A stretch of DNA of 64,000 nt. Source: Pyropia yezoensis. Lineage: Eukaryota; Rhodophyta; Bangiophyceae; Bangiales; Bangiaceae. Where the stretch lies: positions 25,084,020-25,148,019 of the forward strand of contig CM020620.1 in assembly GCA_009829735.1 (NCBI GenBank), in the 5' to 3' direction. The position numbers and the translations under genes were made by a program. The number at the start of each line of letters is the position of its first letter. Position 1 is the first letter of the stretch. Positions 11,674-61,373 of the stretch are shown in pieces. The notes under the pieces were generated by a model that worked only from the letters and a program-made list of their open reading frames with translations, searched no databases and was not told where the DNA came from.

Positions 11674-11699
11674 CCTGGGAATAGCCAGGACAGGGGGCT

Positions 11700-42680: not shown

Positions 42681-45524
42681 ATGATGATCCCAACCGTCCT
42701 CCTTGCGGGTCGGCGAGACGCCCCGCACCCGCCAGACGACGGCGCCACCCCTTGCTCCCACAGCCCCCCCCACGCCAACACCATGGGCCTGTACGGCATC
42801 CCAAACCTGCGTGTCCCTTCTGACTGGGCCCGCCTCTCTGCCAAAACCCTGGCCACCGCCAAGGCCATTGCCGCCGCCATCCGACAGATGCCCGCGCCGA
42901 CGCCCTCCCTTCTGGCTGCCACTCCCGCCGCTGCCGACGCGGCCGCTGCCGCGGCGGCCGCGGCGGGCACGCCGGCGTGGCGTCCCAGCAACAAGGGTCC
43001 CCCCGGCTGCCCCCCCCCCCCCCGAGTGGCCCCTCCCCCCCCTGTATTGCCGGCCATCGATGCCCTATCCAACACCCTCTGCACCGTCTTGGACGCGGCG
43101 GAGTTTGCGCGCCACACCCACCCCGACGCCGCGCACGTGGCCGCCGCGGCCGATGCGTACGAGGCGCTCGCCGCGTATACACATGGCCTCAATGCGGACG
43201 CGGGGCTGTATGGCGCGCTCGCCGCCGCCGCTGACGCGGTGGGCGTGAGCAGGGGGGGGGGGATTGGCGGCGGTGGCGGCCGGCTAGCCCGGGATGAGGA
43301 GGGGGGTGGCGGTACCGGCGGCGGCAGCAGCAGCGGCAGTGACCAACATCCGCACCCCCTGGCCGACATTGACGCCCGCATGTTGTCATCCCTGCTTGCT
43401 GACATGCGCCGCGGCGGTATGGGCCTCCCCCCCACTCAGCGGCAGCGTGTCGTTGGCCTGGCCGGCGCCGCCGCTGCGGCCTCGGCCACCTTTTACGCCG
43501 CCGCCGCGCGGGCAGAGCGCCTGTGCTCCCCCGCCGCCGCCGCCGCCGCCGCCGCTGCCGCTGCAGCCACTGCCACCGACTCTAGCCACTACGGCGGCGG
43601 CCGCGGCGGCTGCGGTGGTGGCCGCGACGCGGCCGTCGCTGCCGCGGCAGCCATTGTCGGCCCCGACGATGGCGGCGGCGGGGGCGACGCGCTGGTGGAC
43701 CTCCTCATCGTCCGCCACGCGCTGGCCACCGCCCTGGGCGAGGCCGACTGGATGGGCCTGGCGTTTGCCGGCCACGACCGGGCGGTGGGGGGGGTGGGGG
43801 GGGTGGACCGCCTGCTGGGGGGGGTTGCCGCCGCCCTTTGCGCCGGCGCGCCCGACCCGCTGGTTACCCGTGGACGGGAGATTAAGGCGGCCGACGAGGC
43901 CGCCGCCGCCGCCGCCACGGCGGCCGCCGCAGAGCGCGGATGGTGGGCACGGCGCGGGCGGGCGGCGGCGGATGGAACGGGGGGAGAGGGTGGCGACGGC
44001 GGCGGCGGTGGCAAGCTGCCCCCACTCCTTCCGTGGGACGAGGCCCACTACCGTGCCCGCGCAGAGGCTGAGGCCGAAGCGGCGGCGGCGAAGAAGACGG
44101 CGGCAGCAGGTCCTCCGCCTGCGGACACGCCCTTCCCCGCCCTCCCCCCCCGCATCCCCCTGTCCGTGTGTATCCGCGGCGTGCGCTTCCTCCTCCGCGC
44201 CCTCTTCTCCCTGCGCATGACACGGGTGGGTTGGGAGCCGGGCGAGGCGTGGGCACCCGGCGTGGAAAAGTACGCTCTGAGCCGCGCCACCGCATCCACC
44301 CCCGCCACCTCCACCGCCACCGCCGCCACCACCACCGCCGCCGCGTTGGCAGTGGGTGGGGGTGCCGTCCCCGCCCCCCTCTCTTCTGCCCCCCTGGCCA
44401 CCGTCTACCTCGACTGCCTGCCGCGGGCCACCAAGTTCGCCGCCGCCGCCCATTTTACCATCCGCTGCAGCCGCCACGTCCGCGGCGGCGGCGCGTACGC
44501 GGGCACCCAGACGCCCGTCGTGGCGCTGGTCACTAACTTTGGGCGTCCCCGCCCGCGGGCAGAGGCGGCGGTGCCCCCCCCCCCTCCCGGGCGTTGGCGG
44601 CAGCGGCCGCAGCGGCGGCTCGCGGCCGTGGCGCCGGCCGAGCCGACGCTGACGCCGCCGCAGCTGCGGACGCTCCTCCACGAGGCAGGCCACCTCCTCC
44701 AGTCGGCCCTTTCCGCGTCGCCTTACCAGCACACCAGCGGTACGCGGGTGGCGGTGGATGCGGTGGAAATCCCTGCGGTGCTCGCCGAGCGCGCCGCCGC
44801 GTGGCCGCCGCTGGTTGCCCGGCTGGTGCGCTGGGCGGGGTACGTGCCGCCGCCACCACGACCGCCACCGCCGCCACCACCATCACCGCCGCCACCACCG
44901 CCACTGGCGGGGGTCACCCCTCGCCCCCCTGGCCCGGTCCCAGTGCCTGACGCAGTGCGGGCGGCGCGGGGGCAGCTGTTGCTTGCCCGCCTCGACGTGG
45001 AGCTCCACTCGGCGGCGCTCCACGCGGACCTCCCGTCTGACAATCCCGCCGCCGCGCGGCGGGCGCTCAAGGCCCGAATCGCCGCCGCCGTGCGGCGACA
45101 CCGCGTCGCCACGGGCGGTGGCGGCGGCGATGAGTACGGTGGGGGTGGCCCGCCCACCGCCGCCACCGACGGCGCCGCCCCCCTCGCCGCCGACGACGCG
45201 GCTGCGCTGGAGGCGGTGGACCTTGCCGACGCCGTGTCAGTGGGCCACCTGGGCTCCTACGGCGCCGGCTACTATGCCTACCTGCTAGCCGAGGTGGTCG
45301 CGTCGGCCCTTGCGGAGGAGGTTGCCCGGGGGGGGGGGCGGGCGGTCGTGGCCCGCCTGTCGGGTGTCCTCTCCGCCGCGGGCGGGTGTCACCCAGCGGA
45401 CGCGGTGCGGGCGGTGGTGGGGGGGGCGGGGGAGGTGGGTGTCGGCGCCTACGCGCGGTCCCTGGGGATGCCCTATGAGGGGGTGGGGGTAGTGGAGGGG
45501 GTGCTGGCCCGAGGAGGTCAATGA
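42681..45524 (+). CDS. Mitochondrial intermediate peptidase (M3 family metallopeptidase)
   Basis: The M3 zinc site is clear: LLHEAGHLLQSALS with H667, E668, H671, and a third ligand in AVEIP (E696), 29 residues after the first His as in thimet-type peptidases. Flanking M3 blocks are YLDCLPRATKFAAAAHFTIRC, PVVALVTNF and YQHTSGTRVAVDAVEIP. The start region GLYGIPNLRVPSDWARL matches the N-terminal motif of mitochondrial intermediate peptidases, which remove an octapeptide from imported precursors in the matrix after the main processing peptidase. At 947 aa it is longer than usual (about 700-770) because of Ala/Gly/Pro insertions. The frame is a single uninterrupted exon. The ATG at 42681 is the first in frame; a mitochondrial presequence is not obvious and could be in an upstream exon. 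It is convergent with the complex I subunit gene. Confidence 0.93.
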   Translation: MMIPTVLLAGRRDAPHPPDDGATPCSHSPPHANTMGLYGIPNLRVPSDWARLSAKTLATAKAIAAAIRQMPAPTPSLLAATPAAADAAAAAAAAAGTPAWRPSNKGPPGCPPPPRVAPPPPVLPAIDALSNTLCTVLDAAEFARHTHPDAAHVAAAADAYEALAAYTHGLNADAGLYGALAAAADAVGVSRGGGIGGGGGRLARDEEGGGGTGGGSSSGSDQHPHPLADIDARMLSSLLADMRRGGMGLPPTQRQRVVGLAGAAAAASATFYAAAARAERLCSPAAAAAAAAAAAATATDSSHYGGGRGGCGGGRDAAVAAAAAIVGPDDGGGGGDALVDLLIVRHALATALGEADWMGLAFAGHDRAVGGVGGVDRLLGGVAAALCAGAPDPLVTRGREIKAADEAAAAAATAAAAERGWWARRGRAAADGTGGEGGDGGGGGKLPPLLPWDEAHYRARAEAEAEAAAAKKTAAAGPPPADTPFPALPPRIPLSVCIRGVRFLLRALFSLRMTRVGWEPGEAWAPGVEKYALSRATASTPATSTATAATTTAAALAVGGGAVPAPLSSAPLATVYLDCLPRATKFAAAAHFTIRCSRHVRGGGAYAGTQTPVVALVTNFGRPRPRAEAAVPPPPPGRWRQRPQRRLAAVAPAEPTLTPPQLRTLLHEAGHLLQSALSASPYQHTSGTRVAVDAVEIPAVLAERAAAWPPLVARLVRWAGYVPPPPRPPPPPPPSPPPPPPLAGVTPRPPGPVPVPDAVRAARGQLLLARLDVELHSAALHADLPSDNPAAARRALKARIAAAVRRHRVATGGGGGDEYGGGGPPTAATDGAAPLAADDAAALEAVDLADAVSVGHLGSYGAGYYAYLLAEVVASALAEEVARGGGRAVVARLSGVLSAAGGCHPADAVRAVVGGAGEVGVGAYARSLGMPYEGVGVVEGVLARGGQ

Positions 45525-47501: not shown

Positions 47502-47713
47502 AAGGTGACTCTCGTGAGGTGATGTGGTATCCATCGACCCGGAAAGGACCTTGCCGGGGATTGCTTTTTAGGGGACATAACTATCGGTTAAACCCCTCCG
47601 GGAACCATCCGACTCATCCTGGGAAAGGTCCCCGGGAAAAGCCGGCGTCTAACCTACTAGTGAACGGCCGACAATTACCCATAATTGGCTCGTAGGCGAA
47701 AAAGGGGGCGGCT

Positions 47714-47799
47714 GACGCACCCCGTGGTAGGTGAGGGTCACGGGCAAGATGCGCGCTGTCTTAGCGTGTTGCAGTGTCCACCAGACCACGGGGTGCGTC
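47714..47799 (-). ncRNA. Structured sequence downstream of Fanzor; candidate guide-RNA scaffold
   Basis: Two 15-bp perfect inverted arms, 47714-47728 (GACGCACCCCGTGGT) and 47785-47799, enclose a 56-nt loop about 130 bp beyond the Fanzor stop codon on its strand. TnpB and Fanzor guide RNAs are encoded at and beyond the 3' end of the nuclease gene, so position and structure fit. Nothing else shows that it is transcribed. A simple stem-loop unrelated to Fanzor is the alternative. Confidence 0.35.
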
Positions 47800-47926
47800 T
47801 GTCGCCCCCGTCTCCGCCCGACGTACCCCGTTCATGGCACTGCCGGCCGCCGTCACCTGTTCCCCACCAGGAGCACCGCGTCGCGTCGTACAGGACGCCG
47901 CCGTCGCGTCGCCGTCGACAACCCCC

Positions 47927-50900
47927 CTACCGCCACCGCCACCGCCACCGCCACCGCCACCGCCACCGCCACCGCCACCGCCACCGCCACCACCACCGCC
48001 GCCACCACCGTCGCCGACAGTGTCCACTGCAGCCAGTACGGGCCATACATCGACCCGCGTAGTTCGCACGGGTGCGACGTACAGGCGGGACGGGAACACC
48101 ACTTGGAGGACGCTTGGTCGTCCAGGCCCACCTCATACCAAACGGGCGCTTGAAAGGCCACACGTCCGTACCCGTTAGACGACGAGCGGCCACCCACGCC
48201 ATGTTGCGGGCCGCAACGTCGTCCCGATTGCGAATGACGGGCGGGTGTGGCGCTGGATGACCGGGGCCTTGTGGGGCCGCGAGAGAGCACGTGTAGCAGC
48301 CCTTGGCCGCCCACTCGCTCAGCCGCCTCGGGTCGGCATAGACGGCGCGGTCCTCGACGGCACAGGCGGCCAGCGCGGCCGCGCGCCGCGCCACAGCAGC
48401 AGCACGGGCAGTGGCTCGGACGGCCGCCCGGTAGGCGTCGGGGTCTGGCCCTCGGCGCGTCACGTGGGTAGCAGAGGGGAGGGCCCGCTTTGGCCGCCCC
48501 CGACGCGACCCAGCCGCCATCCGCACACGCCGTGTCGACGGCAGAGGGCCGGCCGGCGGCCCATTCAGTTCTCTTGGAATCTTGGGGGGGGAGTTGCCCG
48601 TCGAGTAGATGAGCACCATCTTGTCGTGACACTCGAAGCACGCCTGGCTGGTGTTGAACTCGTCCTGGTTGACAAACCAGCACAGCCGTCGGAGGTGGCG
48701 GCGGAGCCAGGCGTCCCCCCCGCGCACGCGCGCGGTGCCCATGGCCACGACGACCGCGCCGCCGCCACGGACCTGGCGAAGGAGGCCGCCGGTCAGGTCC
48801 CGCGCCACCGAGGCAGCAAAGCGGCCGCGTTGGATGGCCTTGCACACACGCGCCGCCCGCAGGTGTCGCGTGGCTTGCGCGCCAAATCGCTGGCCGTACA
48901 CGACCGTGTCCCGACGGGCGGCCCACTCGAGCGTTGCCTGCAGGTGCTTGCCGTCGTCGCCGGTACGCATCGTGCCGTGTGCTGCTGCCAGGTCGACGGG
49001 TGGTAGGTGGCCAGCGACGCCGCCTCCGTCACCCGCCGCCGCCGCCACCAGTCCCGCCACCGCCACCGCCACCGGTCCCGCCTCAGTACCGCTGCGTGCC
49101 CGCCACTGCTTCCACGCACGGGCCAAAAAGTTACCGCCGCTGGCCTCCCGAAAGTGGGCGGCACTCAGGCTGTAGCGAAGGCCAGGGACGGGTGCCAGTC
49201 GACGACACCCCTTGCGCCGGGGCAGCGCGTCCACCCGGTCCAGCAGCGGCGCGTCTGGGGTGGTGCCGCTGGCAATGTCGCCCGCCGCGGCAGTGGGGTC
49301 CACCAGCCACCGTGCCACCTTTTCCGCCTCGTGACGGGGCACAGTCCACCGGGACAGGCGCGTGCGACGCAGCACACGCCGCACCGAGGTGGCGAGCTGG
49401 GTGCGGCGGGCCCGTCGGATGGACGCCTGCGGCCCACGCCGCACGCGCCCGTGGCCACCGCCGGGGCTCGCCGTCTGGTAGGTCTTTGCCTCGGGGGGCG
49501 TCGTCGCACCCGCCGCCGCCGGGGCCACCGCCGCCGCATCATCGTCGCTGCCCTCGGGTGACGACCGCCGCACTTGTCGCTTGGAACGGCTCCCCCCTGT
49601 CCCCGCCCCTGCAGCCGGGGCGCCCGCCGCCGCCCGCTTCCTAGACCCCCCCGGTGGGTGGCCGTCGGGCACGGTTGCGGCTGCCGCCACCCCGTCTTGG
49701 ACGCCCGCCCCACGCAGGAGCGCCACGGCCGCCCGGTTGAGCGCGTCCAAGCCCATGTGGCGGGACCACGCGGCGCGCATCGCGGCTACAGCGGGGCGGG
49801 CTGGGAGGTCTGCCGTCGCCACGCGCTCACCCGGTGCTGCCGACAGTACGGCAGACCGCCCCGGGTCTCCGCCGACCATCTGGAGCCACCGGACGCGCGC
49901 CAACGGCAGGCCAGCCCGCTCGAGCTGCGTCAGTACCCCCGCCCGGGACGCAAAGCCTTTGCCGCCGCGGTCCCGCGCACGTCCACCGCCGTCCAGTTTC
50001 TTGGCCCAGGCCACCGCCCGCGCCTCGGCCTCTGCGGCCGTGTCGGGTCGAGACAGAAAAAATGTTACCGCCACGCCGTCGGTAGACAGCTGGGAGGCGG
50101 CCCGGTTGGCGCGGCCACCGACACCAGCCATGGCGGCCAGCACCGCTGCACCGCCCGTTCGCAGCTCTGGCCATGCCCGAAGACTGGGGTGGCCACGCAC
50201 CCCCACGCAAGTGGCGACCGAAACTGCCCGCAACAGGGCGAGCATCCTGTCCGGCACCAGCGTGCCGTGACCGTGGAGCACCGCTCGGGCGCCAGGGATG
50301 AGGGCGTACGGGCTCCCCACACCCACATTCAGGACGTGGAGGAGAAACGGCACGTACGCCCACCAGCGGCGCTTCTTCACAGGCGTTGCTGGAAAGAGGC
50401 CCGCCACAGAGGGTGGCATGGCCGCCCGCATGACGGCTACCCGTTGCGCCAGCGCCTGGACCAGGTGCTGGGGGACGCCGTCGAGGCCCCGCCGGCCCGG
50501 CGTTGCCTTGTCCGCGGTCCCCGCGCGGAAGCGCGCGGCCGCCCACCGCGTCAGCCGCCGCTCCGTGTCCCAGGCAGAGCCGCCCGCTGGAGCAGCCGTG
50601 GCAGCGGGGGGGGTGGCCAGCGCGTCCTTGGCCGCCTTGGCGCCCAGCTTGCGACACGCCGCGTCCACACACCGCCCGGCGTGGGTGGCCACGATGGTGG
50701 CGACGGGCTCCCATCGTGCCGTGTTGTTGCTCGCCGGAAGATACCGGTCGCACGCAGCTGCCGTGACGGCCATCACCTGCGTCAGGGCGTAGGAGAGCGC
50801 CTCTGCCAGCAGCGGGTGGCTCGTTGTCACCACAGAGCGGGCGCGCGCCATCCGCGTGTTGGTCCGCCCCTTGCCACACCCCGCACACACGGTGCCCGCC

Positions 50901-51016
50901 TGCAGGGGACTGCCAGACACACCCTCGCAGCCGCAGGCGTAGGCCAACCACAGCCAGACGGGCGCCCAGTTTGCGGGCACGGCCCCCGTCCAGTCGGCGT
51001 CGTCGGAGTGTAGCAA
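47927..51016 (-). CDS. Fanzor, eukaryotic TnpB-like RNA-guided nuclease
   Basis: The 1029-codon frame has the family motifs in order. There is an N-terminal CGC...CAGC motif (28-47), then the block STDGVAVTFFL (311-321) typical of Fanzors and GGDPGRSAV (382-390) with the RuvC-I Asp (D384). QDEFNTSQACFEC (784-796) supplies a conserved Glu and the first half of the zinc ribbon, CYTC (907-910) the second half, and VIRNRDDVAARNM (927-939) the RuvC-III Asp (D932). Fanzors are RNA-guided DNA endonucleases that derive from transposon-borne TnpB. No stop, frameshift or missing catalytic residue is seen. Residues about 435-510 are an Ala/Gly/Ser linker. The first codon of the frame is TTG; the first in-frame ATG is at residue 56, after the N-terminal Cys motif, so an upstream exon may be missing. 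The last about 30 residues are an Arg/Trp tail read from a hexanucleotide repeat. A zinc-knuckle gene lies 350 bp upstream in the same orientation. Confidence 0.92.
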   Translation of the reverse strand: MLHSDDADWTGAVPANWAPVWLWLAYACGCEGVSGSPLQAGTVCAGCGKGRTNTRMARARSVVTTSHPLLAEALSYALTQVMAVTAAACDRYLPASNNTARWEPVATIVATHAGRCVDAACRKLGAKAAKDALATPPAATAAPAGGSAWDTERRLTRWAAARFRAGTADKATPGRRGLDGVPQHLVQALAQRVAVMRAAMPPSVAGLFPATPVKKRRWWAYVPFLLHVLNVGVGSPYALIPGARAVLHGHGTLVPDRMLALLRAVSVATCVGVRGHPSLRAWPELRTGGAAVLAAMAGVGGRANRAASQLSTDGVAVTFFLSRPDTAAEAEARAVAWAKKLDGGGRARDRGGKGFASRAGVLTQLERAGLPLARVRWLQMVGGDPGRSAVLSAAPGERVATADLPARPAVAAMRAAWSRHMGLDALNRAAVALLRGAGVQDGVAAAATVPDGHPPGGSRKRAAAGAPAAGAGTGGSRSKRQVRRSSPEGSDDDAAAVAPAAAGATTPPEAKTYQTASPGGGHGRVRRGPQASIRRARRTQLATSVRRVLRRTRLSRWTVPRHEAEKVARWLVDPTAAAGDIASGTTPDAPLLDRVDALPRRKGCRRLAPVPGLRYSLSAAHFREASGGNFLARAWKQWRARSGTEAGPVAVAVAGLVAAAAGDGGGVAGHLPPVDLAAAHGTMRTGDDGKHLQATLEWAARRDTVVYGQRFGAQATRHLRAARVCKAIQRGRFAASVARDLTGGLLRQVRGGGAVVVAMGTARVRGGDAWLRRHLRRLCWFVNQDEFNTSQACFECHDKMVLIYSTGNSPPKIPRELNGPPAGPLPSTRRVRMAAGSRRGRPKRALPSATHVTRRGPDPDAYRAAVRATARAAAVARRAAALAACAVEDRAVYADPRRLSEWAAKGCYTCSLAAPQGPGHPAPHPPVIRNRDDVAARNMAWVAARRLTGTDVWPFKRPFGMRWAWTTKRPPSGVPVPPVRRTRANYAGRCMARTGCSGHCRRRWWRRWWWRWRWRWRWRWRWRWRWRWR
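47929..47988. repeat. Hexanucleotide microsatellite (ACCGCC)10
   Basis: Ten units, with further imperfect CCACC repeats to about 48010. The minus strand reads as alternating Arg/Trp and forms the artificial-looking C-terminus of the Fanzor frame, which stops at TAG 47929-47927 at the very edge of the repeat. Confidence 0.97.
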
Positions 51017-51081
51017 TATGGTTGTCCGTATTGTGACCCTAATATTAGGGGGGCTACTTCTAATCCTTAACTTTCAATTGA

Positions 51082-51097
51082 GAGTCCGTACTGGTCA
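51082..51097 (+). repeat. 16-bp direct repeat, 5' side of the Fanzor ORF
   Basis: GAGTCCGTACTGGTCA, the partner of 47486-47501. The stretch 51019-51130 is AT-rich and contains a third related word (GTCCGTATTGTGACC, 51023-51037) and an inverted pair (CTGGTCA...TGACCAG, 51091-51123), as might be expected at the end of a mobile element. Confidence 0.5.
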
Positions 51098-51365
51098 CGG
51101 TATCTATAAGTTACGTATGACCAGAGGGACTTGCATCTTGGGGTGGAGGGTAGTTAGTAGTGTCTCCGAGGGTTTATAACGTGGGGGCCGGCGGCGAATC
51201 CACCGCCGGCCAAGGTAGAACAACAAACCCCTCCCATTTGGGCTCCCATCTTGGTCCCGTGGCTTGCGCTCCAAGGACAGCAACCTTGGCCTCCCGGTGA
51301 CGTTGGTGCCGATCCCCCTTGGTGAGTGTTCCCTGAGAGTGGACGTGCGACGGATCCCTATTGTG

Positions 51366-52358
51366 CTACACGGCGGCTGCGTCCGCGACGGTCGACACCA
51401 GGCGGCGCAATGCCACGTCGAGGACGCGGAGCATGAGGAAGCGGAGCTTGGTAGCCGCCCCAGAGAGGTCCTCCAGCTCTGCTTGCAGCGCCGTCTCCAC
51501 CGCCGCGCGCGTGCCAGTGTCGTCCTTGTCGTCCCCAAACACCGCCCTTGCCAGGACGCCCACCGGCACGGTACACGCCCGCGTCTGCCGTCGAGTGCTC
51601 TGAAGCGGGTCCTTGCAGTCGGGGTTGACACCGCGGTCGTAGGCCGCTGACACGCCCCCACAGTGCCGCTGCACCGGGCAGGCGGCGTCCCCGCTGCTGT
51701 GGCCCCCTCCCAGGCAGTCGCGACACTTGGACGCGGCCGCCGCCGCCGCCGCCGGGACGGCGGCGGCAGCGGCAGCGGCGGCGGCAGCGGCCGCCGGCCC
51801 TGCACCAGCCGGGGCCTTGCAAGAGGTGACCTTGTGCCCGGGCTCGCCACATCCGCTACACTTTTGCGTCCGCCCCTTGCGGGCGGGCGGTGCGTCAGTG
51901 GCAGCCTCGCGCCGGGGCAAGCCCGCGGCGGCCACGCCAATCAGCCCAGCGGCCGTCTTGGCGCGTGCGGCGAGCTCCACCTCGGCCTCGCTTGCCGCCG
52001 CCCGACCACCACAGTACACGCTGACCGCCTGTGCCGCGCCTGTGATGGCCGCGACGAGGTCCTCGCCGGCGCCATCGAGGGGGCCCGCCGCCTCCTCATC
52101 CTTGGCCGCCTGCTGCAACTGCGCGACGGCGGCAGACCAGTCGGCCGACGAGGCCGCGTCGCCCCCGTGGGGTGCAGACACGCCCTGCAGGCGGCTCAGG
52201 TTGGCGGCGAGCACCGCCCGCTTGAGCGTCACCACGTTTCGTGCGTCTTGAACGTACGCCTGCTCTTGTGCCGGGTCCCACTCCTCGTCCGAGGTGGTGT
52301 CGCCGTCCAGCCCGTCGACGCCAATCTCTTGGTCGCTGCCGTCGTCATCATCGTTCAT
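51366..52358 (-). CDS. Two-zinc-knuckle protein, 330 aa, next to Fanzor
   Basis: The ATG at 52358 starts an acidic N-terminus (MNDDDDGSDQEIGVDGLDGD). A helical Ala-rich middle follows, then a CCHC zinc knuckle CSGCGEPGHKVTSC (167-180), an Ala run, and a second knuckle-like CRDCLGGGHSSGDAAC (212-227) with longer last spacing. A helical C-terminus (AAVETALQAELEDLSGAATKLRFLML) ends it. CCHC knuckles bind single-stranded nucleic acid. The family is not recognised; it is not the gypsy Gag. It has the same orientation as the Fanzor frame and lies directly upstream of it, so it could be its partner, its 5' exon or an unrelated host gene. Homopolymer G (52373-52412) lies just upstream of the ATG. Confidence 0.75.
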   Translation of the reverse strand: MNDDDDGSDQEIGVDGLDGDTTSDEEWDPAQEQAYVQDARNVVTLKRAVLAANLSRLQGVSAPHGGDAASSADWSAAVAQLQQAAKDEEAAGPLDGAGEDLVAAITGAAQAVSVYCGGRAAASEAEVELAARAKTAAGLIGVAAAGLPRREAATDAPPARKGRTQKCSGCGEPGHKVTSCKAPAGAGPAAAAAAAAAAAAVPAAAAAAASKCRDCLGGGHSSGDAACPVQRHCGGVSAAYDRGVNPDCKDPLQSTRRQTRACTVPVGVLARAVFGDDKDDTGTRAAVETALQAELEDLSGAATKLRFLMLRVLDVALRRLVSTVADAAAV

Positions 52359-54000
52359 CGTGAATCCGGGGCGGGGGGGGGGGGGGGGGGGGGGGGGGGG
52401 GAGGGGGGGGGGGCGGAGGCGGATGAGCGGGTTGTGTGTGTGGGAACGACTGTGAGGAGTGTGGGTGGGAGGGATTGTCGACGGTGGCTGACGGGGTTGA
52501 CAAAGATGGGGAACCTCGGGGCACCACCTACCGCCCTATTTATTGTCTGGCAAGGCACCATCCGGACCGGGGTTCTCACTCGATGCCGTACGCGTGCTGT
52601 AGACGCTGGCGATGGGCTGCACGGGCCGTCAGGAGGCCGGCGGTCCAGGTCCTCCCAACCCCCTCCCGCCCCCTCCCTCCCCCCCCCGCCGCCCGCCCCC
52701 CGCCACCCCCCAACCGACGCTACCTCTCGGGCAGGGGGCAGAGCGGAGGATGCTCGCACCGCCACGTGCCCCTGTGGGCTGTCTCGTGGCCTTAGCTCGC
52801 CGCCCCGGAAATGAAAGGTCCTTCTCATCTCCGCGGCACCCGTGGCCGACGGTGGCTGCCGTGAGAGTGTCCTGTAGCGCGGCGGCGGCGGCGGTGGCGG
52901 TGGTGGGGCTGGCGGTGGTGGTGTGGCGGCGGCGTTGGTGGTGATGGGGTTGGCGGCCCAATTGCAGACCGCGCACAGACGCTGTGCTCATGGCAGCCGC
53001 CAGTAGCGCGACGGTGGGTGCGGGACGGAGTGCACCGCATGCACTGCGGCATTTGAGCCGACTGACACGCCAGCATCCGTGCGGCTCGCCCAACCATGGC
53101 GAGCGAGCGCCCCCCCCCCCCCCCCCCCCCTCCCCCCCCCGCTCCCGACGGCACGTATTGGGAGAGTGACCGCCACCGTGCTGCGGGACAATAACAACAC
53201 TGCAATTGAACCCACCCTCGGCACTGCCTGCTCGCCACGGTGCATGTGGAGCGGCGTGCCGGGACGCGGGCACCCAGCCTTTTGGTGCTTCCGGTAGGCC
53301 CCGTCCGTTTGCAATGCATTACGAGCACCGTTTGGGAAAAATGCCATCCTGGACGTCTTGGTGGGGGGGGAGGGGGGGCAGTCGTGTACCTCAAACCCAC
53401 CGCCACAGACGGCATTGCCATGCTGCGAGCTCACCGCGCGGTGCCTCCAAATGGCCTGTCACCAGCACACGACACCGCGCGGGCCGCGTGGACCTACGGC
53501 TCTCGTCAGACCCGGGGGGCGCCGAGGGAAGCGACTGACCGGACCTGCCTGTGGCTGAACGTGCGGCCGACGGATGAGAGCACCCATCCCCGGACACCCC
53601 CGTCACCGTCCAATTCAACATCATCTCGCGCCGCCGCCCAAATCCCCTCCCCTCCCGTTCGATCCGCGTCGGTGTCAGCCGGTGGTCGGGGATCTCAGAT
53701 ATTGAAATTCAATTCGCCCCCCCTCCCCCGCCCGTCGCCCTCTCTTTATGGTTTCCCACCCCACCATGACGCAATCGGAAGACACTAATTCACGCGCCCA
53801 CACAATAGAACAACTATGTGAACAATGTCTACAAAGATCCGAAGAGCGTTACGTACAGTCGGTACCCAATATTATCCCAATATTATCCGTACGGCGAAAA
53901 ACGAGATTCGTACGGATTGATTTGACAACAGGCCACCCATCAAATCCAGGCCCTGGGCTGGACAATAGACAATACCTCGTGCTAGCACCCCCAGCGTAGC
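52359..54000. other. No recognisable gene; homopolymers and short repeats
   Basis: A near-pure G tract of about 40 bp (52373-52412) and a C tract (about 53109-53141) are present. Between 53800 and 53990 the sequence is AT-richer, with a near-tandem CCAATATTATC pair (about 53865-53890) and two CGTACGG words, possibly the end of an old element. The long GC-rich frames at 52600-53430 show no motif. Confidence 0.4.
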
Positions 54001-54007
54001 GGGTCTC

Positions 54008-54638
54008 AAACCGTGTATCTTATTTTCCGTGCCGGCACGTGCGCGCACTGTCGGATGCCTGTTTGCAGGCCCCGCGGGCCCGGGCGTCGCCGCTTCTGCA
54101 AAGCCGTAAAATTTCACATTGTCAGCGGTGCACGCCTTGGCATCATGTAAAACGCTGCAGGGCATGCACAATCTGAAGTGCGGCCCTGGTCGCGCAAAAC
54201 ACCGTGTGCCTGCAGCAACATTCACAAACACGTGAATGCCGTGCCCGTCGCATGCATTGCATTGCGCGGTCACGTGAGGAAGCCTGCACAGCAGTGCAGC
54301 AGTGCGGCACCAGCGACTGACACCATTCGGGCACGTCATGAAACGTGGATATTGCTGCATAGACACGTACTCTCGGGTCACGGTCGCCTTGTTGTGCGCC
54401 CCGCGGCACGCCCCTCTGGCGAGACGCACACAGGCCGTGGGAATGTAGGCCCTGCCGTCCTGATGCCGGTCGTCGAGGAGAGAAAAAAAAAAAAAAAAAG
54501 AGTAGGAAGCACGGTCACAACGCGGCCGTGTGCGCTCTTGCACGCGGAAATCGGGCTTTACGGGGCCCCTGGGCGCCCCCCTGCAATCCACTGCCCGCCT
54601 GTTTGGGCCCGATGCACGGAAAATAAGATACACGGTTT
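54008..54638. mobile_element. 631-bp segment bounded by 25-bp perfect inverted repeats
   Basis: The left end 54008-54032 (AAACCGTGTATCTTATTTTC...) and right end 54614-54638 are exact reverse complements. With a few mismatches the match extends about 14 bp further outward on both sides. The interior has no convincing ORF and a poly-A tract (54483-54499). The right repeat overlaps the stop codon of the Tc1-like transposase to its right, so the inverted repeat includes transposase C-terminal codons. It is either a non-autonomous Tc1-type element or two Tc1 ends joined by rearrangement. Confidence 0.7.
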
Positions 54639-55209
54639 TAGATCCGCTGCGCAGCGGCTATCACACCCCCCACACGACAGGGCATCGACTCCACGAGAGA
54701 CTTGAAAAACAAAGCAGGAATGGCGTCCCACCCGTCGCGCAGAGCCATCCAGCCGCGGTGCGCTGTGGCCCACACAAGGCGCTTGGCGACGTTCTTGGCA
54801 GACAGGAAGGGTTTTTTGGCCGCTTCCCCCTGGAGTGAAAACCCAAGCTCCAGACGGCCCTGCGGACAGCGGAGACTGACACTGGTCCCTTCTCGGGCCC
54901 TCTGGTCGCTTGGGTGCGCGTGATATTCACCATCTCCTTCAGGGATGCCACAGAGGAAAACCCGTCGGTGTCAAGCGCCCGCTTGACGTTACAGAGCTCA
55001 CGGTCCGTCAAAACCTTGGGGCGATCCCGCTTGTCCACCCTGGCGCGGGCGGACTCCGTGCGGATGGCCCATAGCTGCGTAGGCGATGGTGCTCTTGGAG
55101 CGCCCCAAATCCGTACCGATGGCCCGGAAGGACCTCTTCTGTTGGAGGAGGCCAGTGATGACCCCGCGCGCTCACCGTCGGACAGAGAGCGACGCGATGA
55201 GCCCGCCAT
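54638..55209 (-). pseudogene. Tc1/mariner-like transposase, core deleted and frameshifted
   Basis: The N-terminus starts MAGSSRRSLSDGERAG. In the adjoining frame it continues as a helix-turn-helix (GLLQQKRSFRAIGTDLGRSK, then TIAYAAM), then returns to VDKRDRPKVLTDRELCNVKRAL and VSVSAVRRAVWSLGFHSRGKRPK, the bipartite DNA-binding part of Tc1-type transposases. Next comes WMALRDGWDAIP, and the last part, FFKSLVESMPCRVGGVIAA, is the characteristic C-terminal tail (SMPRR-like). The catalytic DDE core that should lie between is largely absent, so there is an internal deletion as well as frameshifts. The stop TAA is at 54640-54638. Confidence 0.8.
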
Positions 55210-55431
55210 CGTGCCTGCCGACCACGGCGGAGTCCTGCGCGCTGAGCTGTGGGCTCACATACACGGACGAGGCTGTGGCACTTGGGCGCGACCTTGCCAT
55301 ATGAGCCTTTGTCCAACTGGTCACGCAACTCAAAACATCAACGCCAGCAGTTGGGAACAACACTGGGGAACAACCGACCACCACATGAAAAGCGACACCT
55401 TCAAAGCATAAAAAAGAGGGGGTGCCGTACA

Positions 55432-55462
<31 letters not shown>

Positions 55463-55494
55463 CTTGCCCCCCCAGAAACAAAAGATATTCCCGA
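55210..55494. other. Gap between transposase relic and helicase gene
   Basis: Contains a poly-C tract of about 30 bp (about 55433-55462) just beyond the helicase stop. No terminal repeat of the Tc1 relic could be placed here. Confidence 0.4.
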
Positions 55495-57621
55495 CTAGAA
55501 CACCCTGTCGGGAGCCACAATGTTGATGTGCTCGCGGTCCCGTCGATCTGGACGGCTCCACCTACGGCGGACGTTGTCCCACCAGCTCTTCCACACACCC
55601 CCAGAGCTTGAAAGGTAGTCCATGTCACCAATCACGTGGAGATGGCTCTGTGCCCGCGACATCATGACGTTCACGCGCCGCTCGTCGGACAAAAAGTCGG
55701 TGCTCCCGCCGGGTGGCGCCCCAGGCTCTGACCGCACGAGGGAGAGGATGACACAGCCCACAGAAGCGCCTTGGCAGCCATCCACGGTGGACACCCTGAC
55801 GTCGGCACATGGTCTGCGGGACAGCCGCCTGCTGTCTCTCATCGACTGCACCACCTCATTCAGCTTGTTCCGCTGCGCAGTGTACGGGGTGATGAGCATC
55901 ACCTTGAGCTCGGTAGCCCCGCTGGACGTCGCCCACGCCCGCAGTAGATCCGTAAGAGCCATCTCGACCAACCGAAGCTCTGCAACGTTAATCAGGCTCT
56001 TGTTGCTGGGGGTGGTGGAACCCGTCTTGTGCGCCCGATCGTCGGCCGGCAGGCGGGAGGTGTCTGTCACTTGCAGCTCCCCAAAGCGAATAGGCTGTCC
56101 CGGATGGTTTAGCCACGCGGGTGTTCCAAACCCCTCCTCATGGCGGGCCTCGGGCCCGCGCCCGTTCGACCATATGCCAATGTGCCGGTAAAAGACTTGT
56201 CGGAGGAGGGACCATAACAGCGGCCGCATGCGGTACTGCACGGAGAGGATGACGCAAGCGGACAGAAACCTGGCGAGCCGCTCAAAAACGCTGGATGCCA
56301 TCGGCCGTGTCTCGCCCCTGCACTCCATGCCGGCGCTCGGCCTCAGCTGGGCATTGTCGCCAACAAGGACAATGCTCTTGGTCCGCTCTGCCGGATGACC
56401 GTCCTCTTCTTCATCTGACGAGCCACCCGCACGCCCCGCCCGCTTGGCGCGAACAATGGCGGCGACAGACGCAGGGACGCTTGTTGCCGCACCCTCGTCA
56501 ACGATAATGGCGTCAAAGCCTTGACCCCCCACGAGCGCCCCCGTCGACGTTGACGTTGTTGTGACAATGACGGACGCGCCGCCCACGATGCGCTTGCGGA
56601 GCTCCCGTTCCGCACGCTGCTGGCGACGCAAGGCAGCCTCCAGGGCTTGCTCCGCATCGGCACATTCCTCGAGGAGGACTTGTGACCCACCCGCGCCCGG
56701 CTCTGCACCCTGGGCGCGGGAACGATCCACACGACGGCCCACATCGGCCACCCGTGCCCTTGCCCGTTCCACCGCGGCTGTCACGGACGGGTAGGCGACA
56801 GGATGGCGCTCGTCCACCACGGCGTCAATGTGCGTTGTCTTGGCACGGTGGCCATCCGGAGGGGGTTCACCCACACGGAGGAGCGTCACGGCATCGGGTT
56901 TCGCGACGCCGTGTCGAATGGCAGCCCCCGACGGACAGAACAACTCGTGCACTGCGTCCAACAGCTCGGCGCACGCCGTGTTGGTGCGCGACGTCAGCAG
57001 GACCCGCCCGTCTGGCAGGGTCCCAAGTACCATGTCCACCATGGAGACAATGGCGCGTGTCTTGCCCGTCCCGGGGGGGCCCGTCACCAGCTGCACGTCA
57101 CCCTCGTCCGACAACAGCCCACGGCGCATGCAATCGACTGCGCGCCACTGGAACTCGTCCAGGTGGGCGTAGCGTGGAGGCGCACTCTGCAGGGGTGGAG
57201 GCCCCGGTGCCGGTACAGGTACCACCTGCTGTCCCCCGTGCGGAGGCGTTGCGTGGATGGCGAGCGCCCTCTGCATGACTGGCGGAAGAAGGTCCCAGTG
57301 GCCGAGGCCGCCAAACTCGCGGCTGTCCGACAGGACACTATGAGACAGGGTGACGACCACATTCGCCGTCCGACGATGGAGCATCCGCCGCACGTCTGAA
57401 CGACGCACCGCAAACCACCACCGCCGGGGGGGACTGGATGCGCCACCGTGGCGCGCCGTGCCGGCGTCATCGTCCCCCTCGTCCAGCCCCGGGCCAGGCG
57501 TCTTGTCCACCCACCACTGGCCTGCCCCCGCGGGCGGTGGGCCACCAACCCCTCCGCCGGGTTGCCCCTCCTTGTCCTCGCAGCCGCCAATAAACACGGC
57601 GTCCACGGGGGTGCTGCACAC
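55495..57621 (-). CDS. UPF1/ZNFX1-like superfamily 1 helicase domain
   Basis: All SF1 motifs are present in order: Walker A GPPGTGKT (181-188), Walker B IIVDEGAA (372-379), motif III VGDNAQLRP (420-428), motif IV VQYRMRP (461-467), motif V STVDGCQGA (611-619) and motif VI RRVNVMMSRA (648-657). The QLRP in motif III is more like ZNFX1/Hrr1-type helicases than UPF1 (QLPP). Such enzymes unwind RNA or RNA-DNA in RNA surveillance or silencing. The frame begins with GTG at 57621 shortly after an in-frame stop, so the domain is probably the C-terminal part of a larger protein whose upstream exons are the frames at 57643-61373. No NFX1 zinc fingers are seen. Confidence 0.9.
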   Translation of the reverse strand: MCSTPVDAVFIGGCEDKEGQPGGGVGGPPPAGAGQWWVDKTPGPGLDEGDDDAGTARHGGASSPPRRWWFAVRRSDVRRMLHRRTANVVVTLSHSVLSDSREFGGLGHWDLLPPVMQRALAIHATPPHGGQQVVPVPAPGPPPLQSAPPRYAHLDEFQWRAVDCMRRGLLSDEGDVQLVTGPPGTGKTRAIVSMVDMVLGTLPDGRVLLTSRTNTACAELLDAVHELFCPSGAAIRHGVAKPDAVTLLRVGEPPPDGHRAKTTHIDAVVDERHPVAYPSVTAAVERARARVADVGRRVDRSRAQGAEPGAGGSQVLLEECADAEQALEAALRRQQRAERELRKRIVGGASVIVTTTSTSTGALVGGQGFDAIIVDEGAATSVPASVAAIVRAKRAGRAGGSSDEEEDGHPAERTKSIVLVGDNAQLRPSAGMECRGETRPMASSVFERLARFLSACVILSVQYRMRPLLWSLLRQVFYRHIGIWSNGRGPEARHEEGFGTPAWLNHPGQPIRFGELQVTDTSRLPADDRAHKTGSTTPSNKSLINVAELRLVEMALTDLLRAWATSSGATELKVMLITPYTAQRNKLNEVVQSMRDSRRLSRRPCADVRVSTVDGCQGASVGCVILSLVRSEPGAPPGGSTDFLSDERRVNVMMSRAQSHLHVIGDMDYLSSSGGVWKSWWDNVRRRWSRPDRRDREHINIVAPDRVF

Positions 57622-57642
57622 CGAGCCGACGGGTTCCGGTAC

Positions 57643-58452
57643 TCAAAAGGCACACAAATCACCCGGGGTGGCGTCTGTGGGGTCCACTTGACACTCTCCC
57701 CCGCGGTCCTTGTGGCGGCGGTGGTGGCGGCCGCCCCCACCGGGGGGACCACCCCGGGGGGCGGGCATACGCACGAGCACATTGCACATGCGACACGCCC
57801 GCGGGTCGTCCAAAATGGACCCCCCCACCTGCGGCGACGACAGGGTTATGGGCACGTCGATGCGAGCCACGCCAAAGCGGGAGCACAATGACGACGTGGT
57901 CACGCGCCCACTGCGTCCGCCGCCGCCGCCATGGCCCTTGTTGCTCCCTTCGATAGACTGCGCCACCGCATCTGTACCGCGGGCGGCTAGCTGGCACAGG
58001 GTGGCGACAACGATGGCCTGCCAGCGGCCCCCAGGTCCTCTTGCGTACAACGGGGACGGGCGCAGGTGGGTTGAGACACCCGTCCACCCAGACTCGGACG
58101 TACAGAGCGTCAGCTGACCGAGCGCCACCCGATCACCATCCGCGTCACACCGTGTGGGAGGACTGGCCTGGCTCACACCACCCCCCGCCGCCGCCGCGGC
58201 TGCCGCGGGCAGAGGTGCTGCAGTGGGAGACGCGTCCCCCCCACCACCCGGGGAACCGATACAAGGACCTCCCACGCCGGCAGTCCCACCTCCAACAACA
58301 GCCGCTTCCGCGTCTGCAACTGCAGACAACGCGGGAGAGAGCTCCTCCCCCCGAGCCACTGCCGGGCCCACCGCAGCCACCCCCGCCGAGTCGGCTGCTG
58401 CAGCAGTACCAGGTTCAGCAGGTGCACCTCCGCCAACACCCGCGTCGGCCAC
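57643..58452 (-). CDS. Upstream segment of the helicase locus (frame B)
   Basis: The stop lies 22 bp upstream of the helicase frame. The C-terminal half looks genuine: TGVSTHLRPSPLYARGPGGRWQAIVVATLCQLAARGTD, then SSLCSRFGVARIDVPITLSS and DPRACRMCNVLVRMP. The N-terminal half is Ala/Gly-rich. It is best read as an internal part of the helicase protein, joined to the downstream frame by a small intron or a frameshift near 57640 and to the upstream frame near 58400. A GT...AG pair enclosing only 29 nt at the junction is too short to trust as an intron. Confidence 0.5.
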   Translation of the reverse strand: MADAGVGGGAPAEPGTAAAADSAGVAAVGPAVARGEELSPALSAVADAEAAVVGGGTAGVGGPCIGSPGGGGDASPTAAPLPAAAAAAAGGGVSQASPPTRCDADGDRVALGQLTLCTSESGWTGVSTHLRPSPLYARGPGGRWQAIVVATLCQLAARGTDAVAQSIEGSNKGHGGGGGRSGRVTTSSLCSRFGVARIDVPITLSSPQVGGSILDDPRACRMCNVLVRMPAPRGGPPGGGGRHHRRHKDRGGECQVDPTDATPGDLCAF

Positions 58453-60566
58453 GGCCGCCGTGCCCGCAGGAGCCCACCAACGCCAGGAGCACCCACAGCC
58501 ACAGCATCCACCGCGCCTGTGGCTATACCCGCCGCCGATGGAGCATCGGGAGCAGCAGCGGTAACAGCAACCTCGGGCGTAGAGGGCCCGCCCGGGACGG
58601 CTGCCGTCGCGGAGGAGGTGGCAGCTACCGTCGCGACAGAGGTGGCAGCACTCTGAGCTACTGCCACATGGGCGGCCGCCCCAAAGGCGGAGGGCGTCCG
58701 CCGCTGCCCGACCAGTTGGCCGGCCCGGACCACCCGGGCCACACTGACGACAGTCACGTCATCGTTCTCTGCGTCATTCCAGTCATCGTCGTCGTCAATG
58801 AACACAATGACGTTGCAGGGTTCCGCATTGTAGACAGGGGAAACTGCCTGCGCAGCCAACACATTGTCTGGGACCGCCACTGCGGGTAGGTAGCACACAA
58901 ACTCGACTTCGCCCCTCGCGTCGTCGCCAATGGTAATGCCGTCGGGGTCACCGTCACCGGACGGAATCGCCATGGTCGCATCGGGCGCTGGGGGAGGCCG
59001 CCCATCTTTGTCGGCACCTGACCCGGCACCTACCTCATCGGCAGGCGCAGCCCCCGCCCCTGCGTCGTCTGGCGCAGCACCCGCCCCAGTGTCGTCTGGC
59101 GCAGCAGACCCGCCGAGTACTTCGTCGATGCGCTGACGAAGTTGCTCGACCAGGGGGCTGACCCGCTTGCTAGGCTTGGCAGGCGGACAGAGCAAACTCC
59201 TCAGCTTGTGCAGGGCCTGGGAGGTATTCTCGCAATCTCGTCCGATCCAGGGCGACATACCCGAGGGGGACGCCAACCAGGCAATTGCTGCGTTGGCCAG
59301 CGCCCTCCGAGATGCCCGCACACCAGACGCAAGCGGCATACTCCCCAGGTTGTAAATGGCCGCATAGTACACCCAGCCGTATCGCGTCCGCGCCGCCTCG
59401 TCGTTTCCGACGGCAACCTGCCAAAGGCTCGGCAGCGAGTCAACCAACTCGTTGACATCGGGGGCGATGTGTGCCGCGTCCAAGATGTCAAAATGGGTGG
59501 AGCACCCAGCGGGATCGGCGAATCGGGCGAGGCACCCGACGAGCGCGTAGAGGATGACACTCTGTGCTTCCGACACGTCTCGGTGGATGCCCAGCCGCAT
59601 GAGCAGGTGCAGGACACGGGCGAGCGCCCCACCCTCTGACATTTTGTCCGAATCGCCTTGAGAGCCCACAGCCGCAGCCGGGGGCCCCGCGCTCACGTCC
59701 GTCAGCACCTGTCGGCCGCCCCGCAAAAACGCCGTACTTACGGCAAACAGCTGCAGGGGGATGCCGTTCCAGTGACGAGCCGCACGAGCAGTGCGCGCAC
59801 TAACACCCAGCAAGTGCAGGGCGTTTTGGATGACGCGCAGGGCGTCAAAAGTTCGCGGACCACCACAAGGCGGACCCGGGGCGGCAGCGCTGGTGGTCTC
59901 GCAGGCGGAGTCACCGCGCCCCCCCCCGTCGGGCAGGACGGGTGAGCACCCATCAAACAGGTCCATGACGGACCACGAATCAGACCGACCGCCCCCCCGC
60001 TCACCCACCACACCGGCTAGGTGACGGATGACGTCCCGGGCGGACAGTCGGAACTTTGAGCTGGGCGCCACCAGCCACCCGACGCCAGTGTCCGAGGCAG
60101 TGACCCTCGCAAAACGTGAAAACAGGGCCGCAGCCGGGGCGGGAGCAGCAGCAGCGCCCGGGTGTCCCAGAACGGTTGGGAAGAGCAAAGCCGCCATGTC
60201 ACACATGGCCGTTCTCCACGCCTTGACTTCTTCAAAAGCATCGAAGAAGTCCGTCGGCAACATTGCCAGCGTCCCTGGCATGGACATCAGCAGGGCAACG
60301 TCGTCAGGGCTGCCCGCACCGGCCGGGACAGGCTCGTCGTCACCGCCACCCCGCTCCACGACGGCAGGTACGAAGACCGACTCGACCAGATGCGACCACA
60401 GGCGGGTGTGCAGTTTTAACGGCTGCTGGGGCGCTCCAGTACCACCCTTGCCCGCCAGCACCGCCTGATGCACGGTGGCAGTGTCTGTCGCACATGCGTC
60501 GAGCAGGAAGCGCTGGGCCCCGGGTGGCCAGACGCCCGTGGACCAGGCGGTACGGAAAAACCGCAC
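58173..60566 (-). CDS. Large helical N-terminal region of the helicase locus (frame A)
   Basis: The 797-codon frame is rich in helices: VRFFRTAWSTGVWPPGAQRF, DFFDAFEEVKAWRTAMCDM, TFDALRVIQNALHLLGVS, ARVLHLLMRLGIHRDVSE, YYAAIYNLGSM. An acidic stretch (VIFIDDDDDWNDAENDD) follows, then an Ala/Val-rich tail that turns into nonsense after about 58400, where frame B takes over. The start given is GTG. The same frame continues upstream through a TAG at 60675-60677. I recognise no domain. Position and orientation suggest a regulatory region fused to the downstream helicase. Confidence 0.55.
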   Translation of the reverse strand: MRFFRTAWSTGVWPPGAQRFLLDACATDTATVHQAVLAGKGGTGAPQQPLKLHTRLWSHLVESVFVPAVVERGGGDDEPVPAGAGSPDDVALLMSMPGTLAMLPTDFFDAFEEVKAWRTAMCDMAALLFPTVLGHPGAAAAPAPAAALFSRFARVTASDTGVGWLVAPSSKFRLSARDVIRHLAGVVGERGGGRSDSWSVMDLFDGCSPVLPDGGGRGDSACETTSAAAPGPPCGGPRTFDALRVIQNALHLLGVSARTARAARHWNGIPLQLFAVSTAFLRGGRQVLTDVSAGPPAAAVGSQGDSDKMSEGGALARVLHLLMRLGIHRDVSEAQSVILYALVGCLARFADPAGCSTHFDILDAAHIAPDVNELVDSLPSLWQVAVGNDEAARTRYGWVYYAAIYNLGSMPLASGVRASRRALANAAIAWLASPSGMSPWIGRDCENTSQALHKLRSLLCPPAKPSKRVSPLVEQLRQRIDEVLGGSAAPDDTGAGAAPDDAGAGAAPADEVGAGSGADKDGRPPPAPDATMAIPSGDGDPDGITIGDDARGEVEFVCYLPAVAVPDNVLAAQAVSPVYNAEPCNVIVFIDDDDDWNDAENDDVTVVSVARVVRAGQLVGQRRTPSAFGAAAHVAVAQSAATSVATVAATSSATAAVPGGPSTPEVAVTAAAPDAPSAAGIATGAVDAVAVGAPGVGGLLRARRPWPTRVLAEVHLLNLVLLQQPTRRGWLRWARQWLGGRSSLPRCLQLQTRKRLLLEVGLPAWEVLVSVPRVVGGTRLPLQHLCPRQPRRRRGVV

Positions 60567-60674
60567 TTGTTCCGGCCAGGAAGGAGAATTGACCAGCGGC
60601 CCGTGCTCGCGCAGCCATTTCGAGCAGACGGCGCCGACAGCAGCGACCGTCTCGCGGCTGAAGTGGGCGAGCTC

Positions 60675-61373
60675 CTAGCCACCACCACTGCCAGCGTGCG
60701 CTACAACATGCGCATCTTGCCGGGGAAGCGTCGCCGGCGGCTCGTCCGCCCTAGGGTGTCGAAAGTCCGCGCGGGGGGGGGTCAACGCCAATGAACGGGA
60801 AGACGGCATCGCAGCCGGACCCGCAGGGCCCCCAGGACCGCCCAAGGCCGGGACGGCAAGGCCACCAGGGGCGGTGAGACGCAGCCGCTTCCGCCCAGAC
60901 CGGCCGGTCACCAGCATCTGTGCGGGCGCCGCCACCGCCGCCGCCCGCACCGCCAGGCGGTGGAACGTTGTTTTTGCCCGCCACACGTCAGGAACCATGA
61001 CGGGGAGGACAAACATGTCCACGAGTGCCTCGAGGTTGTCGCGAGGCAGGTTTGCCAAACCCGGGCCGCGAAGGGCATGTCGAACGGCGGTTGCCATCTC
61101 TCGTGCCACGACCGGGACGCCTGCGTGTGGCAGATACAAGTGGGACAGGTGGGCAACAGCGGCCTGGGCAATCTGCACACCTTGGTCCGTACGACGAAGC
61201 GTCGACGTGGCCTGGATCACACACAGGGCGTCGGCCTGGGTCGTCTCCCGAGGGCCGATGCGAGCGAAGAGGGCGTCGCACTCATGCACCAGTTCGAGGG
61301 CACCCGGGTTGTGTGCCCGCCTGGCCACCGCAACCCCTGACTGGTCGGTGCCAACCGCCACAGCCGTCCCCAC
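60675..61373 (-). CDS. N-terminal segment of the helicase locus, truncated by the gypsy copy 2 junction
   Basis: In the same frame as 58173-60566 but closed by a TAG at 60675-60677. Directly after the TAG the frame reads convincingly (ELAHFSRETVAAVGAVCSKW). The segment itself contains LELVHECDALFARIGPRETTQADALCVIQ, LPRDNLEALVDMFVLPVMVPDVWRA and TTFHRLAVRAAAVAAP. The TAG might be the AG of a 3' splice site (GGCTAG|GAG) or a premature stop. At 61373 the sequence switches to gypsy pol, so the true N-terminus is missing; the GTG at 61373 is not a real start. Confidence 0.55.
   Translation of the reverse strand: MGTAVAVGTDQSGVAVARRAHNPGALELVHECDALFARIGPRETTQADALCVIQATSTLRRTDQGVQIAQAAVAHLSHLYLPHAGVPVVAREMATAVRHALRGPGLANLPRDNLEALVDMFVLPVMVPDVWRAKTTFHRLAVRAAAVAAPAQMLVTGRSGRKRLRLTAPGGLAVPALGGPGGPAGPAAMPSSRSLALTPPRADFRHPRADEPPATLPRQDAHVVAHAGSGGG

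Follow-up and report, generated by a model that had tools for sequence, protein, structure and literature searches.

A damaged gene of probable Fanzor1 type at the end of a large repeated element of the red alga Pyropia yezoensis

In the retention model for TnpB and Fanzor nucleases, the complex of nuclease and RNA cuts the empty sites that remain after excision of an element, and repair copies the element back. The window analyzed here, a 64-kb stretch of contig CM020620.1 of Pyropia yezoensis, contains a gene of probable Fanzor1 type that is interrupted and frame-shifted. Its open reading frame (ORF) at 47927-51016 covers the 3′ three quarters, in damaged form. We consider it likely that this ORF belongs to such a gene standing at an end of a large multi-copy element, with a scheme of omega-RNA and retention as known for Fanzors. 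In the sections of Yoon et al. (PMC10711439) cited here, DPG together with an alternative Glu is the Fanzor arrangement and TDG is characteristic of the Fanzor1 WED domain. A published search pattern has CxxC pairs 12-18 residues apart. The Fanzor1 pattern quoted from PMC3627910 is D-X(125,275)-[TS][TS]XX-C4 finger. According to the cited parts of Saito et al. (PMC10432273), ghost Spu-1 elements share a right-end region, and the GtFz1 omega-RNA overlaps the last 17 codons.

With Fanzor1 as portrayed in excerpts on SpuFz1, GtFz1 and PpFz1 (PMC10432273, PMC11423790, PMC10711439, PMC3627910), the P. yezoensis family shares the TDG and DPG motifs, the relocated Glu, the CxxC pairs and NRD, as well as many copies per genome, a conserved 3′ end past the stop codon and Fanzor-less repeats with the same end. 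Its proteins have ~1,400 amino acids (aa) versus up to ~800 in the cited section of PMC10711439, and the family differs further in its N-terminal zinc knuckles, the 404 residues from D to [TS][TS] and the 110 residues between the CxxC pairs. Moreover, the gene here lies in a large element whose other frames encode a helicase, a C48 protease and methyltransferase/SET, and its relation to Fanzor1 was not detected at the sequence level. Another red algal Fanzor1, CMe-1A of Cyanidioschyzon merolae, occurs in ~150 copies and has no terminal inverted repeats according to the portion of PMC3627910 cited; by that description, the element measures ~3 kb, in contrast to at least 21 kb here. Viral Fanzor1 elements resemble the present one in carrying a DNA methyltransferase in the same element but possess a Mariner transposase, none of which was recognized among the frames scanned here. 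Among the papers searched, none joined Fanzor with Porphyra or Pyropia; the element was not sought under other names.

Positions are counted from the first letter of the window, and copy counts refer to a search of the 107-Mb genome in 11 contigs. The ORF comprises 1029 aa without stops, with the earliest in-frame ATG at residue 56; it is the reference for the residue numbers (D384, E786, D932 etc.). The following features were assigned:

47927..51016, minus strand: ORF with the Fanzor-type core, covering three quarters of the gene from its 3′ side
50066..50083, minus strand: TDGVAV at residue 312, TDG motif of the Fanzor1 WED type
49865..49867, minus strand: D384 of DPG, RuvC-I (GGDPGR at 382)
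48659..48661, minus strand: E786, alternative RuvC-II Glu (DEFNTS at 785)
48629..48640, minus strand: first CxxC, CFEC, residues 793-796
48287..48298, minus strand: second CxxC, CYTC, residues 907-910
48221..48223, minus strand: D932 of NRD (at 930), RuvC-III

A sequence-only reading of this DNA had reported the Fanzor hallmark motifs in one open frame. All were found, in the Fanzor order TDG, DPG, E-x6-CxxC, CxxC, NRD. That reading had also placed the catalytic Glu downstream of its canonical position, and indeed the canonical RuvC-II place, VVVAMG at residue 755, has no Glu, while E786 stands six residues ahead of the first CxxC and fits E-x6-CxxC. In a chance test the full ordered motif appeared in 0/20,000 residue shuffles of the ORF and in one of the 55 window open frames of at least 250 aa; the looser pattern DPG, E-x6-CxxC, CxxC, D was matched by 3/20,000 shuffles. 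The RD follows CYTC at a distance of 20 residues, inside the 5-50 residues after the finger used for Fanzor1.

The window gene is split by an insertion and altered towards its 3′ end, at the following places:

51009..51370, strand not assigned: insertion that interrupts the gene and is probably a solo long terminal repeat (LTR); 362 bp, TG...CA, 5-bp flanks CGCCG/CTCCG
51371..52358, minus strand: 5′ portion of this gene, with its ATG at 52358
51660..51863, minus strand: two zinc-knuckle-like motifs by sequence, CX2CX4HX4C and CX2CX4HX6C (Pfam zf-CCHC_6 E 0.29, below cut-off)
48065..48079, minus strand: window frame departs from the frame of the open copies (frame shift, by comparison)
47761..47763, minus strand: stop codon of the family frame by comparison, 182 nt from the terminus and in a different frame from the window ORF

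Of the 24 other copies examined, 23 cross the insertion place uninterrupted and the 24th, L028, is interrupted by the same stretch elsewhere; five copies displayed at the empty site show no break. In the homologues P0001 and P0004, the upstream frame at 51366-52358 continues directly into the ORF. The inserted 362 bp equal the beginning of a 3.8-kb repeat that is abundant in the genome, with 34 places scored, the query among them. In L027, where they lie outside the gene, and in L028 they occur by themselves, and the aligned sequence there lacks the 3.8-kb repeat. Their ends and flanks suggest that they are probably a solo LTR. No second LTR and no reverse transcriptase could be demonstrated, and the 905-aa frame of the 3.8-kb repeat had no Pfam family above cut-off. 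A miniature inverted-repeat transposable element with a 3-bp duplication was rejected in favor of the probable solo LTR, and an intron was rejected in view of the repeat with TG...CA and 5-bp flanking repeats; the 3′ edge has no AG. At L052:2978-6798 lies a copy of the 3.8-kb repeat, which is 98-99% alike among the scored places, apparently very young, and whose start is the window-gene insertion.

The frame shift near 48065 means that the RWRWRW tail of the window ORF is not the family's. Thus, the ORF coordinates are not the gene boundaries, because the insertion sets the upstream end and the last ~45 residues are read in the other frame. Single residues deviate as well, with N at 783 versus D in 12/12 open copies and F at 794 versus S in 11/12. 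The description of this locus as catalytically intact thus holds for the three catalytic residues, which are present, but not for the gene, which is interrupted by 362 bp and frame-shifted.

At least 24 further copies at 96-98% identity reside on three contigs; 25 candidates were scored, the window copy among them, and the other 24 were examined. A copy was counted as open if a single frame of at least 1250 aa ran from an MNDDDDG start to past NRD. Twelve of the 24 were open from the ATG past NRD, with 1266-1417 aa and no intron. Among the 12 that failed, L030 was fetched partially, and L011 and L019 have long frames without the MNDDDDG start. Eleven of the 12 open copies finish in TARR and the homologue P0004 in AARR, while L027 stops directly past NRD. 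Both Asp residues are present in all 12 and the Glu in 11 (Gly in L027), all three together in 11/12. The window copy and 12/12 open copies keep DPG, TDG is found in 11/12, and the relocated Glu ahead of CxxC is shared by the window copy and 11/12.

The protein search found 11 homologues, six of them labelled Pyropia yezoensis and each a "hypothetical protein". The first Asp and the Glu are kept in P0004 (62% identity) and P0006 (37%), and the Asp of NRD in P0004, whereas P0006 stops short of NRD; P0008 and P0009 have DTG instead of DPG. The family protein has ~1,400 aa, with a zinc-knuckle N-terminal extension, a TDG region and a putative RuvC-type core that is split by long insertions and holds the relocated Glu. 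The CxxC pairs would form a ribbon, into which 110 residues are inserted.

The ratio of nonsynonymous to synonymous substitutions (dN/dS), pooled over the 66 pairs of the 12 open copies, was 0.50 in the coding frame, versus 1.11 and 1.30 in the shifted forward frames and 1.12, 0.56 and 1.23 in the reverse frames. By stretches of 150 codons, it was 0.33 around TDG and DPG, 0.22 around NRD and 0.80-0.88 in the N-terminal part and linker. Variable sites at codon positions 1, 2 and 3 numbered 153, 151 and 225. These values suggest purifying selection on the open copies, to be read with the caveats that the copies were selected for openness, that the pairs depend on one another and that an antisense frame is low too. 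The earlier proposal that the nuclease may still be functional is plausible for the open sister copies but not for the window copy, which is broken.

The assignment to Fanzor was examined at the profile level. A local hhalign match to four TnpB proteins covered 18 columns with a probability of 66.6 and a score of 41.8, versus 21.9 for the best of 100 column-shuffled profiles. A search of viral contigs yielded four TnpB loci and one locus judged unrelated; phage records searched for relatives gave nothing useful. The likeness to TnpB, including TnpB with a relocated Glu, concerns the residues around CxxC and NRD, and E-x6-CxxC recurs in L002; the difference lies in the open stretches of 279-494 aa and the compact ribbon of the TnpB in the four viral contigs. 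L002, one of the viral contigs, carries a TnpB-like frame with relocated Glu (DERWSSQVCSTC) in E-x6-CxxC and reads D-L-G, not DPG, at RuvC-I.

Several results weigh against the preferred explanation. None of the curated Pfam and NCBIfam models passed; the 1029-aa frame alone gave no match, and the best Pfam match of the family, PF07282, had an E of 0.16 and 12.6 bits versus a cut-off of 26.3 (it was reached by 2/12 family members at E up to 10). The solved Fanzor structures were found neither by single-sequence nor by profile search. Protein searches up to E 10 (6, 5 and 8 rows), in two of which the best 8000 candidates by shared words were scored, had only this Fanzor-type family among the matches listed. 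While the motif order is kept, D384 to T789 spans 404 residues, more than the published spacing from D to [TS][TS], and the 110 residues from CFEC to CYTC are outside the published range. P0004 is without the last Cys, P0005 has Lys in place of the Glu, one antisense frame is also low in dN/dS (0.56), and the 150-codon stretch holding the Glu has 0.53. The AlphaFold2 model was unusable, with a mean predicted local distance difference test score of 35.7 and a predicted template modelling score of 0.24, and the geometry of D384, E786 and D932, which the sequence-only reading had proposed for checking, was not readable either way. The label Fanzor1-type was chosen because the motifs with the relocated Glu and TDG, the TnpB match, the repeated element and the terminal module stand against the failed profiles, the exceeded spacings, the missing Cys and the unusable model. 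There is a fair probability, judged from these comparisons, that the gene works like a Fanzor.

The gene belongs to a much longer repeated block, of which the window contains:

47579..61371, strand not assigned: part of the large repeated element, with a sharp left end and a right side truncated beside a retrotransposon pol fragment
55498..57642, minus strand: helicase frame, AAA_11/AAA_12 (AAA_12 E 2.5e-34), presumably Upf1-type
58176..60674, minus strand: 833-codon open frame (no Pfam family above cut-off for 58173-60566)

All or part of the region 53400-61371 recurs, 86-98% alike, at 17 further scored places. Past 61371, all 12 of the other copies fetched go on with one common sequence, and an element end at this position was rejected for that reason. 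L049 and L050 are alignable for almost 8 kb further; therefore, the repeated block measures at least 21 kb, with the Fanzor-type gene at its end. An Ulp1-type Peptidase_C48 frame (E 3.3e-16), itself repeated, is situated by coordinates 17-65 kb away in the same orientation in 9/24 Fanzor-type copies, distances that are inflated by nested repeats. Beyond C48, with the Fanzor terminus 40-42 kb away, follows a frame with N6_N4_Mtase (E 3.8e-7); at a second locus, 96% alike over 5.6 kb, SET was just above cut-off (E 1.1e-4), and at the first locus below it (0.031). The N6_N4_Mtase and SET frames in the far part of the block are located at L054:1579-3780 and L053:713-4048. An inverted-repeat element bounded on both sides by one motif was rejected, since no second AACTATCGGTTAAACCCC match occurred within the nine spans of Fanzor and C48. 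Repetition with differing flanks indicates that the Fanzor-type gene is probably carried by a eukaryotic mobile element. That it is one mobile unit we infer from the collinear copies, because the far end, sought among them, was not reached, nested repeats occur and no transposase was recognized among the frames scanned.

The Fanzor-side end of the element is defined by two features:

47579..47596, plus strand: element terminus AACTATCGGTTAAACCCC, 82 genome matches at up to 2 mismatches versus 1 for the backwards control
47579..47841, minus strand: terminal 263-bp module, common to a second repeat family whose body differs; it may be an omega-RNA scaffold or a transposition end

The 82 matches are distributed over the strands as 35 and 47. 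This end was printed for 21/25 loci including the window, 19 of which read AACTATC before GGTTAAACCCC; L025 and L027 have one base changed there, and the flanks differ between loci. The base ahead of the exact terminal motif is T in 21/38 termini. The 182 nt from the family stop codon to the terminus have a distance of 0.016 among the 12 open copies and 0.017 among 23 copies, less than the coding sequence (dS 0.047, dN 0.023), and for the same five copies the distance was 0.018 in the 3′ versus 0.033 in the upstream non-coding sequence. Among the 82 matches, 20 are termini without a listed Fanzor, similar to the window over 18 to ~960 bp; eight of these are similar over more than 400 bp, reaching into Fanzor coding sequence. 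When 40 candidates were scored, the query counted among them, 14 places matched a different body and 26 just the terminal 255-263 bp (97-98%). The sharp switch at 263 bp thus marks a module, made up of the 182 nt, the stop codon and the 26 codons before it, that is common to two families. The second family, seen at L062:61-961 and L076, joins the Fanzor terminal 263 bp to a body of more than 3 kb, in which the opposite strand has a long alanine-rich frame; the family's other end was sought and not found.

The low variation and the sharing are what an omega-RNA or a transposition end would show, the latter being a candidate role, and the module resembles the common end of ghost Spu-1 and the GtFz1 omega-RNA overlapping the last codons in the sections of PMC10432273 cited. 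The strand at 47600-47926 folds better than shuffles (z -6.2). On the opposing side, compensatory base pairs in the terminal hairpin amounted to 0/120 and 0/65 pairs, so that covariation support for it was rejected, and L056 and L074 are without the 5′ arm of the long hairpin. An Rfam search gave no useful match.

If the family functions like a Fanzor, the terminal 208-263 nt would be transcribed as omega-RNA, with the flank beyond the terminus as its guide. The nuclease-RNA complex could then cut empty sites left by excision, and repair would copy the element back. Repeats holding just the terminal module might use the same machinery, and of the window copy, which makes no complete enzyme, just the terminal module could still act, as source of the RNA or as an end. 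A wider scenario is more doubtful, though worth stating: a giant red-algal mobile element of tens of kb, possibly virus-derived, would have an oversized zinc-knuckle Fanzor1 with its omega-RNA at one end, helicase, Ulp1-type protease and DNA methyltransferase with SET would replicate and mark it, and another repeat family would have taken over the terminal RNA module.

Alternatively, the protein might be Fanzor-derived but no longer cut under RNA guidance, serving the element instead by binding DNA or RNA, for instance at the terminus or together with the helicase during replication. Its unusual size and insertions, the added zinc knuckles and the lack of detected similarity to solved Fanzors would fit such a role, as would the moderate dN/dS with 0.53 in the Glu stretch, the loss of the Glu in L027 and P0005 and the change of DPG to DTG in P0008 and P0009. 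However, the three residues occur together in 11/12 open copies and P0004, and dN/dS is low at the DPG (0.33) and NRD (0.22) stretches; we regard this alternative as unlikely. A chance match of motifs in a GC-rich, alanine-rich frame unrelated to TnpB or Fanzor would explain why no curated profile passes, and long open frames are common on both strands of the window DNA, but it is hard to reconcile with 0/20,000 shuffles for the full motif, an hhalign score of 41.8 versus at most 21.9 and conservation in homologues at 37-62% identity, and appears very improbable. We attach even less weight to an intact single Fanzor nuclease gene at 47927-51016, with the 362-bp stretch perhaps as an intron. 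The open frame with D384, E786 and D932 speaks for it; against it stand the equality of the 362 bp with the beginning of a repeat for which 34 places were scored, their 5-bp flanking repeats, the lack of AG at their 3′ edge, the uninterrupted passage of 23/24 other copies and the frame-shifted tail.

Should the preferred reading of a Fanzor1-type gene with omega-RNA at one end of a multi-copy element be true, Fanzor-type nucleases would come to include a far larger architecture and to occur in a giant element, and the many near-identical open copies in this cultivated alga would constitute a natural test of what a Fanzor does for its element. This raises the questions whether excised sites are cut and whether the terminal RNA module serves elements without the gene.

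Further features were observed in the surroundings. Retrotransposon pol fragments with RVT_1 occupy 61369-64000 and 11499-14129; they are 97% alike and presumably of Ty3/gypsy type, and the former abuts the truncated Fanzor element at 61369-61371. Near the element, at 42681-45524 on the plus strand, lies a 947-aa frame with Peptidase_M3 (E 1.8e-24). The GC-rich segment 2960-6592 of the window recurs, 96% alike, next to a further copy of the element, at L048:3620-7249.

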